From assembly GCA_022795675.1 (NCBI GenBank), contig JAAWHY010000002.1, positions 1 through 32,321 on the forward strand: DNA of 32,321 nucleotides. Reading direction: 5' to 3'. Made by a program: the position numbers and the translations under genes. The stretch is from Clostridia bacterium. Its GTDB lineage: Bacteria > Bacillota > Clostridia > TANB77 > CAG-508. Shown here in pieces: positions 15,497 through 31,697 of this stretch. Below the pieces are notes generated by a model. The model saw only the letters and a list, made by a program, of their open reading frames with translations. It was not told the DNA's origin and searched no databases. How positions within the stretch are numbered: the stretch's first letter is position 1; each line of letters opens with the position of its first letter.

Positions 15497-15525
15497 TTGA
15501 CAAATACGTTTTATCTGTGTATAAT
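15497..15525 (+). promoter_or_regulatory. Antisense-RNA promoter, type I TA-like locus 1
   Basis: Perfect sigma-A consensus: TTGACA, 17 bases, TATAAT. It points away from mutS2 and no ORF follows in that direction. The only product is a short RNA ending at the terminator near 15620. Confidence 0.85.
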
Positions 15526-15531
15526 ATTTAT

Positions 15532-15622
15532 AGGAAAAGAGAAATCGCAGAAATGCGGTTACCTAAATAAAATTTTTAAATAACAACACATCGCTCTGCA
15601 GAAGCAAATGTGTTGTTTTTTA
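15532..15622 (+). ncRNA. Predicted antisense RNA (antitoxin candidate), locus 1
   Basis: A transcript of about 90 nt would start 7 bases after the -10 box. Its 5' end contains the GAAA-capped hairpin CGCA GAAA TGCG. It ends in the terminator AACAACACAT..ATGTGTTGTT followed by TTTTTAT. Its 3' part is complementary to the 3' end of the hydrophobic-peptide mRNA made from the other strand. The antitoxin role is inferred from this convergent layout. Confidence 0.65.
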
Positions 15623-15727
15623 TATTTGTCTATTTACCCATTGTATGTAGATTATACATAGCAAGGCAATATTTATGGTTACTGAAATCATTAATCCCAT
15701 AATTAGGAATGCCAATACTCCTACCAT
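15620..15727 (-). CDS. 35-residue hydrophobic peptide, type I toxin candidate (locus 1)
   Basis: ATG with AGGAGG 8 bases upstream. The peptide begins MVGVLAFLIMGLMISVTINI and ends in WVNRQI: one membrane-spanning helix and a short basic-polar tail, like small type I toxins. A homologue of identical length is encoded at 20467-20574. The two share FLI-GLM-S-TINIALLCIIYI and a C-terminal W...QI. At least 8 codon differences are synonymous and most others exchange one hydrophobic residue for another, which argues for coding. A hairpin (CTCGAT..ATCGAG, 15746-15762) lies in the 5' leader just before the ribosome site and may limit translation. I know no family by sequence. Confidence 0.7.
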   Translation of the reverse strand: MVGVLAFLIMGLMISVTINIALLCIIYIQWVNRQI

Positions 15728-15808
15728 TAGCCTCACCTCCTTACTCTCGATTGTTTATCGAGGTTCAGAGGTAACACACACATCCACTAAATTTCTCTTT
15801 TCTAGATT

Positions 15809-15931
15809 TTAATATACTATATTTTTTACTAAAAAGCAAGTGTTTGTTTTACTTAAATCAGATTTTTTTATTGGATTGTAAATTTTATTTATATAATCAT
15901 AACTGCTTGAATGTGATATATATATCTTCAT
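15809..15931 (-). pseudogene. 5' remnant of a gene with an MKIYISHS start, cut at TA-like locus 1
   Basis: GAGGAGGAG lies 6 bases before an ATG that opens MKIYISHSSSYDYINKIYNP, then about 20 more codons to a stop. The beginning resembles small TIR/nucleoside-deoxyribosyltransferase-like proteins (from memory, not checked). After roughly residue 26 the reading frame runs into the promoter of locus 1, so the gene seems to have been truncated there. It may instead be a real 40-residue peptide. Confidence 0.4.
15811..15839 (-). promoter_or_regulatory. Promoter of the locus 1 hydrophobic-peptide mRNA
   Basis: On the minus strand TTGCTT, 17 bases, TATATT. It is followed by a leader GAAAAGAGAAAT...GTGTTACCT that closely matches the 5' end of the opposing RNA. 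Confidence 0.65.
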
Positions 15932-20347: not shown

Positions 20348-20376
20348 TTGACTTTATCTGAAAATCTATGTATAAT
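20348..20376 (+). promoter_or_regulatory. Antisense-RNA promoter, type I TA-like locus 2
   Basis: TTGACT, 17 bases, TATAAT. It occupies the same place relative to the hairpin and ORF as in locus 1. Confidence 0.8.
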
Positions 20377-20382
20377 ACATAT

Positions 20383-20467
20383 AGAAAATGAGAAACACAG
20401 AAATGTGTGTTACCCAATATAATTGAATTACACCACTAGCTCTGCGAAAGCGTATGTGGTGTATTTT
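20383..20467 (+). ncRNA. Predicted antisense RNA (antitoxin candidate), locus 2
   Basis: Starts with ATAGAAAATGAGAAACACAG, then AAATGTGTGTTACC. This includes ACACA GAAA TGTGT, a GAAA-capped hairpin like that of locus 1. It ends at ACACCAC..GTGGTGT followed by ATTTTTAT. It overlaps the 3' end of the peptide mRNA by about 40 nt. Confidence 0.65.
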
Positions 20468-20574
20468 TATATTTGTTTATCAGTCCACATTATGTATATA
20501 ATACACAATAAGGCGATATTTATGGTTGTTGATAACATTAATCCTATTATTAGGAATAGTAAAATTTCCACCAT
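20467..20574 (-). CDS. 35-residue hydrophobic peptide, type I toxin candidate (locus 2)
   Basis: ATG with AGGAGG 9 bases upstream. The peptide begins MVEILLFLIIGLMLSTTINI and ends in WTDKQI. It has the same length as the locus 1 peptide, with one transmembrane helix and a charged tail. The leader contains the segment GTGTGTTACCTC shared with locus 1, and a weaker hairpin before the ribosome site. The gene lies in an otherwise non-coding stretch between the WalJ-like gene and the Rieske oxidoreductase. Coding is supported by codon-level conservation with locus 1. Toxicity is inferred from layout and hydrophobicity. Confidence 0.7.
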   Translation of the reverse strand: MVEILLFLIIGLMLSTTINIALLCIIYIMWTDKQI

Positions 20575-20655
20575 AAGCACTCACCTCCTCACTCTTAACA
20601 TAGGTTGAGGTTTAGAGGTAACACACATCTGCTTTTATCTCATTTTCTATTTTAT

Positions 20656-20684
20656 AATATATAATATAATTTACAAAAAAACAA
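20656..20684 (-). promoter_or_regulatory. Promoter of the locus 2 hydrophobic-peptide mRNA
   Basis: On the minus strand TTGTTT, 17 bases, TATATT. The predicted start at about 20649 gives a leader ATAGAAAATGAGA identical to that of the opposing RNA. Confidence 0.6.
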
Positions 20685-20761
20685 GCGAACAAAACAAATT
20701 TTTTCTTTTTAATTTGTATAAAATATTTTTAAAAATAATATAAATATTGAAATTTTATCAG

Positions 20762-25305: not shown

Positions 25306-25845
25306 ATGTTATATTATTTTAATGAATTATTAGAAAAAGGATTAAGTAAATATCAAATAGAAAAAAATGTTAAGGATAAAGAATTATTTAAAATTTCAAG
25401 AGGTATTTATTCTGATGAAGAATACCCAAATGATTTATCTGTAATAGTAAAAAAATATCCAAATGTAATATTAACTTTAAATAGTGCTTTTTATTACTAT
25501 GAGCTAACAGACAAAATACCAGAATATTACTACTTAGCAACAGATATAAAATCTTATATAATAAAGGATTCTTCTGTAAAGCAAGTTTTTATGAAAAAAG
25601 ACTTTTTAAAAATTGGATTAGCCAAATGTAAAATAGAAGAAACAGAAATCTATATATATGATAAAGAAAGATTGTTGATAGAACTTATTAGATATAAAAC
25701 AAAATTACCATATGAATTATATAAAGATGTCATAAATAATTACAGAAAAATTAGAAATGAATTAGATTTTATGAAAATTTATAAATATGCTCAAGTATTT
25801 AATAGTTCATATATAATGCAAACTATAGAAAAGGAAGTGATGTAA
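25306..25845 (+). CDS. abiEi: AbiEi-type antitoxin
   Basis: 179 residues. The N-terminal ~50 residues form a winged-helix domain (GLSKYQIEKNVKDKELFKIS, then GIYSDEEY), the usual AbiEi layout. A C-terminal domain follows with YLATDI and IYIYDKERLLIELIRYK. Type IV antitoxins of this kind repress the operon and counter the AbiEii nucleotidyltransferase. Residues 74-80 hold the Tyr-rich segment seen in the family. Stop and toxin start overlap by one base (TAATG), so translation is coupled. The operator/promoter lies directly upstream. AT-rich codons match the element. Confidence 0.85.
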   Translation: MLYYFNELLEKGLSKYQIEKNVKDKELFKISRGIYSDEEYPNDLSVIVKKYPNVILTLNSAFYYYELTDKIPEYYYLATDIKSYIIKDSSVKQVFMKKDFLKIGLAKCKIEETEIYIYDKERLLIELIRYKTKLPYELYKDVINNYRKIRNELDFMKIYKYAQVFNSSYIMQTIEKEVM

Positions 25846-26525
25846 TGAATGATTTAAATGAATGTGTACGTCAATATATTAAAGAAGGTTATAATAGAAA
25901 CTATGCTATTTCTAAGGTCTGTCAAGATATTATAATAAATAGAATTTATAATTCCAAATACAGTGATAAAATCACAATTAAAGGTGGAGTTGTAATGTTC
26001 CATTTAACAAACAATATTCGTAGAGCAACTGTAGATATTGATATGGACTTAATTAATATGTCTATAGCAACAGAAAATATTATTAATATTTTTATTGAAC
26101 TTAGTAAATTAGATAGTATTGATGGTTTTAAATTAAGTATTGACAAAAATAGAATTGAAGAACTATCACATCAAGATTATCATGGAAAAAGACTAACAGT
26201 TAGTATAACAGATAGTCATAGAAAAACTTATAATGTTAAGTTAGATATTGGCGTACATAAATATACAGATATTCATCAAGATACTTTACTATTAAATACA
26301 CAAATCATTGATGGAAATATAGAATTTTTAGTTAATCCAAAGGAACAAATTTTTACAGAAAAATTAATTCCTATATTAAAATTTGGTCCCCTATCGACAA
26401 GATATAGAGACGTATTTGACTTGTATTGGTTAATAACTGAAGGAAATTTAGATAAAGATAAAATTTTACATTATATGAAGATATTAATTTTTGATAGTGA
26501 CATAAATATTCATGAAACCCAATAA
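25845..26525 (+). CDS. abiEii: AbiEii-type nucleotidyltransferase toxin, C-terminus cut by a stop
   Basis: 226 residues with the DNA polymerase-beta-like motif KGGVVMFHLTNNIRRATVDI: GG at 47-48 and catalytic D64 and D66. Motif II lies around KLDIGVHK. FTEKLIPILKFGPLSTRYRD matches the conserved Lys-Arg region with the kinase-like core. After HETQ there is TAA at 26523-26525. The same frame then continues for 48 codons (LYNTVNLVLSEPNFIANLSN and on) to a stop at 26672, which looks like the missing C-terminal helical part. The original gene was probably 275 codons. The truncated protein may be inactive. Family toxins modify tRNA 3' ends or otherwise block growth and phage. Confidence 0.8.
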   Translation: MNDLNECVRQYIKEGYNRNYAISKVCQDIIINRIYNSKYSDKITIKGGVVMFHLTNNIRRATVDIDMDLINMSIATENIINIFIELSKLDSIDGFKLSIDKNRIEELSHQDYHGKRLTVSITDSHRKTYNVKLDIGVHKYTDIHQDTLLLNTQIIDGNIEFLVNPKEQIFTEKLIPILKFGPLSTRYRDVFDLYWLITEGNLDKDKILHYMKILIFDSDINIHETQ

Positions 26526-31059: not shown

Positions 31060-31088
31060 TAGACAAATGACGTTTTATTGTGTATAAT
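31060..31088 (+). promoter_or_regulatory. Promoter of the XRE-S24 repressor
   Basis: TAGACA, 17 bases, TATAAT, 33 bases before the ATG at 31122. Confidence 0.65.
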
Positions 31089-31121
31089 AATACTATATTT
31101 TTTGGAAAGAGGTTGAAGATT

Positions 31122-31697
31122 ATGATTGGAGGTATGCTTGCAAAAGCTAGAAAAGCTAAAGGAATGACTAAGACTGAACTTGCTAGACTTACAGATATTA
31201 ACATTGGACATTTAACTCATATTGAGAAGGGAGAAAGAAATCCAAGCCATAAAGCCTTAAAGAACATTTGTAAGGCTCTTGATATCCCATATCAACAATT
31301 AATGTATACATATGATAAAACTATTAATGAGGAACAAGAAAGCTATAATGTTGTTAAACATATTTCTTATGACAAAATACTTGCTGTTAATAGTATTGAC
31401 AGTTTTATCGATTGCCCATCAGATATGCCTAGTGCTGCTATTGCACTTAAAATGCCTGATGATTCAATGAATAAATCATTTGAGAAAGGTTCATATATTT
31501 TTATAGAGTTTAATTCACCTTTAAATAGTAAGGATTATGGATTATTTAATTATAATAACCAAATTCTTATTAGAAGATTTTATGATAAAAGAGGTAAAAT
31601 TACTTTAAAGGCTGAAAATCCAGATTGTAAAGATATTCAAGTGTCAAATACTGATACATTTTATATTATCGGAAAAGTGCTAATTAAGAAAAAATAA
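31122..31697 (+). CDS. XRE-S24 (cI/LexA-like) repressor
   Basis: 191 residues. The ATG at 31122 follows AAAGAGG; the open frame runs 14 codons upstream into the promoter, so that start is rejected. Residues 5-60 are an HTH_3 domain (KARKAKGMTKTELARLTDIN, HIEKGERNP). The C-terminal domain resembles S24 peptidases: the catalytic Ser is S115 in PDDSM, and ITLKAENPDC is typical. The usual catalytic Lys is replaced by Arg (R151 in ILIRRFY), and no Ala-Gly cleavage site is obvious, so self-cleavage may be lost. It could be a prophage or element regulator left beside the tRNA. Confidence 0.8.
   Translation: MIGGMLAKARKAKGMTKTELARLTDINIGHLTHIEKGERNPSHKALKNICKALDIPYQQLMYTYDKTINEEQESYNVVKHISYDKILAVNSIDSFIDCPSDMPSAAIALKMPDDSMNKSFEKGSYIFIEFNSPLNSKDYGLFNYNNQILIRRFYDKRGKITLKAENPDCKDIQVSNTDTFYIIGKVLIKKK

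Follow-up and report, generated by a model that had tools for sequence, protein, structure and literature searches.

The window, that is, the whole stretch of 32,321 nucleotides that was analyzed, holds at positions 15497 to 15839 a compact locus in which two promoters converge on a short open reading frame (ORF) (Table 1). The original prediction had described convergent promoters here, and both are present, the plus-strand one matching the consensus in 12 of 12 positions and the minus-strand one in 8 of 12. It had also described a minus-strand ORF (15727-15620) for a single-helix hydrophobic peptide with a strong ribosome site, and this could be seen directly, the Shine-Dalgarno sequence (SD) being GGAGGTGAGG. 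The opposing RNA of about 90 nt, said to end in a hairpin plus T-run, was located by sequence prediction at about 15530-15622; its predicted 3' end, AACAACACAT...ATGTGTTGTT followed by the T-run, abuts the stop codon of the ORF. All the coordinates originally given proved exact.

Table 1 Features of the two cassettes in the window
Feature	Position	Strand	Basis
Copy 1
Antisense RNA promoter, TTGACA-17-TATAAT, 12/12, TGTG upstream	15497..15525	+	
Predicted antisense antitoxin RNA, ~90 nt	15530..15622	+	RNA model R2 match 15530-15623, 96.7 bits
Antisense 5' hairpin, AUCGCA-GAAA-UGCGGU, then UACCU	15544..15559	+	Covariation
Terminator hairpin, common to both transcripts	15582..15621	both	U-tract strong on antisense side, weaker on mRNA side
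Putative toxin ORF, 35-aa single-TM peptide MVGVLAFLIMGLMISVTINIALLCIIYIQWVNRQI	15623..15727, stop 15620-15622	-	ORF list, family conservation, purifying selection
Toxin mRNA leader, predicted 5' end ~15804, opening with TAGAAAAGAGAAA module common to the antisense RNA	15728..15804	-	
SD arm, GAGGUGA, pairing with the leader anti-SD arm	15733..15739	-	Covariation
Inner leader hairpin, CUCGAU/AUCGAG, between anti-SD and SD	15746..15762	-	
Leader anti-SD arm, UUACCUC	15768..15774	-	Covariation
Toxin mRNA promoter, TTGCTT-17-TATATT, weak, 8/12 vs consensus	15811..15839	-	Promoter scoring
Copy 2
Antisense promoter, TTGACT-17-TATAAT	20348-20376	+	
Predicted antisense RNA	20381-20469	+	R2 model
Putative toxin ORF MVEILLFLIIGLMLSTTINIALLCIIYIMWTDKQI	20470..20574	-	
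Leader (R1 match 20572-20624); leader plus promoter region	20572..20694	-	

We then determined how far the cassette extends beyond the window. A profile search found it in 187 of the 388 genomes of the order, which are fragmented metagenome-assembled genomes (MAGs), with up to 7 copies per genome and nearly all of them in one family; peptide matches occurred in 45 of 97 relatives. Homologues beyond this contig, whose absence had been named beforehand as evidence against the prediction, were thus found in quantity. In all, 194 full cassettes were collected, and they encode 166 distinct peptides. In a class-wide sample, just three weak matches lay outside the order (E values of 0.002 to 0.006), two of them with internal stops, and these were treated as chance; the class-level searches gave no convincing relative of the peptide outside the order. 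A search with the leader DNA pattern returned 56 stretches in named records, and almost all of these came from MAGs of uncultured gut Clostridia. One cassette (L087) stood on a contig binned as Bacilli, by misbinning or transfer, and a leader pattern match on a contig binned as Alphaproteobacteria (L086) is possibly due to chance. No phage or plasmid relatives turned up when one subfamily peptide was tried against each, and the exact leader pattern was absent from viral contigs. Among the cassette loci we found no recurrent neighbor gene and no linked transposase, and since no neighbor recurs, the cassette appears self-contained; genes resembling those of conjugative elements were common to three loci. 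On one 6.6-kb contig (G002:C94), at least three cassettes form a tandem array, 1.1 to 1.3 kb apart (L040, L107, and L133).

A second copy, announced in the original prediction, is genuine: its minus-strand ORF encodes a protein 69 to 71% identical to that of copy 1, and the full cassette (20348-20694) is flanked by an MBL-fold hydrolase gene and a FAD/Rieske oxidoreductase gene. The same genome contains four further matches to the copy 1 peptide, including copy 2 and one with an in-frame stop. At a further cassette of this genome (L250, C11) the toxin is frameshifted and the antisense promoter is intact, making it a natural toxin-dead copy. The 3' regions of the two window copies pair weakly with each other (-33 and -39 kcal/mol, versus -79 and -87 kcal/mol for the cognate pairs). 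In many cassettes the motif TTTTGTTCGCTTG immediately precedes the toxin -35 region (in copy 2 at 20682-20694, minus strand); it has four exact copies in this genome, three of them at cassettes, and is possibly an operator. Elsewhere in the window, positions 25306-26525 (plus strand) encode an AbiEii family protein (type IV toxin-antitoxin), preceded by a probable partner of the AbiEi type that has no Pfam match, and positions 31062-31697 (plus strand) a repressor with a helix-turn-helix (HTH) and an S24 peptidase domain, whose promoter region is 93% like the antisense promoter over 29 nt.

The peptide is under purifying selection, with a pN/pS of about 0.35 across the 194 cassettes. The synonymous excess that had been asked of the substitutions was seen: for cassette pairs 3 to 25% apart at the DNA level, the in-frame ratio was 0.34 to 0.38, versus 0.78 in one shifted frame and 3.6 in the other (pairs 8 to 18% apart). 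The conserved residues center on S-x-T-x-N-x-A-L within the membrane helix, the alignment contains no proline, and the C-terminal tails, examined with regard to the lysine-rich, charged C terminus of C. difficile type I toxins, are short and of mixed charge (e.g., WVNRQI, WVDKQLHK, and IDKE). The locus thus has the small hydrophobic protein-coding gene under selection that is expected of a type I toxin-antitoxin (TA) system. With the covariance model built for the antisense RNA (R2), diverged peptides also came to light under the common leader and antisense RNA, among them MVEQAMLMIIYLLFYGLVGMTIIAFALIIAIVVILSK, MVESALIIITYLLFYGLVAMTIINVALLIIICWLLHRQ, and MIETSFLFTIIYILFYSLIGITIITFALIVYLIIIISKQK; seven loci of such peptides were found through the RNA model alone (L261, L267, L269, L271, L276, L279, and L280), and the diverged peptides were likewise not found outside the order.

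The other gene expected of a type I system, one for an antisense RNA complementary to the toxin mRNA, is present at the sequence level. An antisense promoter scoring at least 11 of 12 was found in 183 of the 194 cassettes, versus 1 of 194 in shuffles of the same flanks, and the distance from its -10 element to the toxin stop codon was 89 to 99 nt; toxin promoters scored 7 to 11 of 12. Two hairpins make up the R2 model, one at the 5' end and one that is the terminator. Together these were 93.7% paired and showed 34 double-sided changes, versus 11.8 (SD, 2.3) after shuffling, although covariation in the terminator hairpin would be expected of any terminator. The terminator U-tract amounted to 7.6 of 10 on the antisense side, versus 5.1 on the mRNA side.

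Regarding the toxin mRNA, we built a second covariance model (R1) from eight leaders, which gave 68 matches in 87 sources. In the R1 alignment, 95.9% of the cells of the leader stem were paired, and there were 108 double-sided changes, versus 32.1 (SD, 4.1) in shuffled alignments and at most 13 in slid ones; the alignment having been fitted to the model, these counts lean toward it. The position that pairs with the SD swaps between U-A, A-U, and C-G among leaders. In a model-free test, the 5' and 3' halves of the leader paired at -21.5 kcal/mol with their cognates versus -15.1 kcal/mol with halves from other loci, and a closely related version of this test, comparing cognate with swapped halves, gave a permutation p of about 0.0002. 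In 48 of 72 controls whose upstream part had been shuffled, the SD was paired as well, so its pairing in the minimum free energy structure says little by itself. It is the covariation that gives strong evidence that the leader stem buries the toxin SD. A first RNAalifold run on a MAFFT alignment of the leaders had yielded no consensus because the inner hairpin differs in length, a problem solved by the covariance model.

The two genes of the cassette decay differently. The antisense promoter was kept in 182 of the 184 loci with an intact ORF; of the two exceptions, one (L180) has its antisense gene cut off at the terminator, apparently by an insertion, and the other (L008) has a mutated SD. 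Conversely, an R2 search of 40 genomes revealed antisense genes without a complete toxin, the latter being truncated, deleted, or absent (L257, L262, L270, L277, and, with a damaged promoter, L268). Such an asymmetry is what should be left of a putative toxin and its antidote, with the proviso that it was a match to the peptide or the RNA that led to these loci, which introduces an ascertainment bias.

The original prediction held that the peptide matches no toxin family, and indeed nothing reliable was found for it in Pfam, NCBIfam, PHROGs, or PADLOC; the PHROGs matches were weak (best E value, 0.02; function of the match not assigned). Neither RNA belongs to an Rfam family, the weak matches falling far below the gathering scores. 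From the family libraries and the open-access literature, from which a description in a subscription journal or a supplement would escape, the best reading is that the family is undescribed. Validated type I systems in Clostridia are limited to C. difficile according to a 2019 review (PMC6563280).

Among known systems, the locus had been likened to par of pAD1 (Fst/RNA I-RNA II, Fst/Ldr superfamily), which has convergent promoters, a bidirectional terminator, and a leader stem sequestering the SD (PMC7472228). This analogy stands for all three features: convergent promoters with a shared bidirectional terminator give 3' complementarity here as well, with the weaker U-tract on the mRNA side, and a leader stem-loop sequesters the SD. 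Both also have a short membrane toxin, putative here, of about 33 to 35 amino acids. The analogy does not extend to the 5' end, where the direct repeats of par make its RNAs complementary at the translation start (PMC7472228). In the present cassette the repeats are inverted, so that the two RNAs are same-sense at their 5' ends, and a complementarity of the DRa/DRb type was rejected because the antisense 5' part was complementary to the leader plus ORF over 6.61 nt, versus 6.60 nt when shuffled, which is chance level. Moreover, the PXXXG(C) motif and any Fst match in Pfam or NCBIfam are absent, and the antisense RNA is about 90 nt long, versus about 40 nt in par. With three par features present and both the 5' complementarity and the Fst motif absent, the cassette has a par-like outline yet falls outside the Fst family.

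The C. difficile modules CD2517.1-RCd8, CD2907.1-RCd9, and CD0956.2-RCd10 likewise consist of convergent overlapping genes with a small hydrophobic toxin, occur in multiple copies, and are expected, as is the case here, to be specific for their cognates (PMC6563280). Most of them are located in prophages or close to CRISPR arrays, whereas the present cassettes have no common neighbor and no phage match. The portion of that account dealing with these modules, whose toxins were compared by description, mentions neither an S.T.N.AL core nor a covarying leader. In TxpA/RatA and BsrG/SR4 of Bacillus subtilis, toxin and antisense RNA are also convergent with a 3' overlap (PMC6563280). Here, in contrast, no Pfam or NCBIfam model matches the toxin, the overlap is at the terminator, and the antisense RNA is shorter. 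The AapA1/IsoA1 system of Helicobacter pylori differs from the cassette in orientation and peptide. It resembles it in a toxin mRNA fold that hides the SD (PMC6733600).

The locus is very probably a chromosomal type I TA module of an undescribed family with par-like anatomy. The originally proposed TA locus with convergent, 3'-overlapping RNAs draws support, all of it from comparative sequence analysis, from conservation, coding selection, RNA covariation, and the decay pattern; the toxin promoter of the window copy, weak by consensus, was counted against it. In the proposed mechanism, the strong plus promoter would produce a short, abundant antisense RNA, and the weak minus promoter the message for a single-helix membrane toxin of 35 residues. 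The leader would pair the SD with an upstream UURCCNY arm, a structure backed by covariation, and a new message would presumably be poorly translated. Over the terminator hairpin that the two transcripts have in common, the antisense RNA and the 3' end of the mRNA are perfect complements; pairing could start there and silence or destabilize the mRNA. By analogy, upon loss of the antisense RNA the mRNA would eventually open, and the peptide would enter the membrane and harm the cell.

A variant of this mechanism, not exclusive with it, concerns the 5' ends. Both transcripts of nearly all cassettes open with a AUAGGAAAUGA-like sequence at the predicted +1, and the longest identical 5' stretch of the two RNAs was 11.1 nt, versus 5.6 nt when shuffled. 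A conserved upstream ORF in the leader, suggested by this motif, was considered and rejected, as by inspection the reading frames differ between loci. The common leader may be left over from a duplication, or it may allow the antisense RNA to dock on the SD. Control of the toxin in trans through this module, with the URCC arm as a copy of the leader anti-SD that binds the SD directly, would fit the common opening and the observation that in 118 of 139 loci, versus 78.8 (SD, 4.3) when permuted, the antisense letter after CC (URCC-N) is able to pair with its counterpart in the SD. However, common ancestry or gene conversion of the leaders and the relatedness of the loci explain this coupling equally well, the energies predicted for pairing between the SD half and the antisense 5' part showed no preference for cognate over noncognate partners (p = 0.32), and their pairing overall was no better than shuffled, which leaves such control possible but doubtful. 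We are similarly tentative about antitoxin action by mimicry of the toxin leader, whereby pairing of the terminator hairpins would be accompanied by docking of the antisense copy of the anti-SD on the SD in trans, so that a single regulatory cassette would serve several diverged toxin peptides.

Other readings dispense with a toxin. The gene might encode a beneficial small membrane protein, e.g., a stress or transporter regulator, held under antisense repression and without a toxic role, which would agree with the purifying selection on the peptide and its vertical spread in one family. We nevertheless consider this unlikely, given the patchy presence in about half of the genomes, the scattered sites without a common neighbor, the tandem arrays, the dead toxins beside live antisense genes, and the near absence of intact toxins lacking the antisense promoter. 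Scattered copies and tandem arrays, along with the inverted likeness of the two ends, would suit a mobile or selfish repeat in which the two leaders, as inverted ends, serve for recombination and the peptide is incidental; but this likeness begins at the predicted +1 of both RNAs rather than at the promoters or outer ends, and the coding selection, the covarying SD stem, and the lack of a linked transposase render such a repeat very improbable. That the ORF arose by chance in AT-rich intergenic DNA could be argued from the frequency of hydrophobic ORFs in such DNA, which the many weak matches illustrate, yet hundreds of homologues with in-frame selection have already refuted this explanation, and its probability is negligible.

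A type I TA module at this locus would add to the uncultured gut Clostridia a large undescribed family with several toxin subfamilies on one RNA architecture. Its hundreds of natural variants would form a strong basis for comparing the ways in which type I toxin mRNAs conceal the ribosome site, and the same-sense duplicated leader raises the question of how the antitoxin finds its target. Dead toxins occur within the same genomes as solitary antitoxins, which allows the decay of TA pairs to be studied as well.
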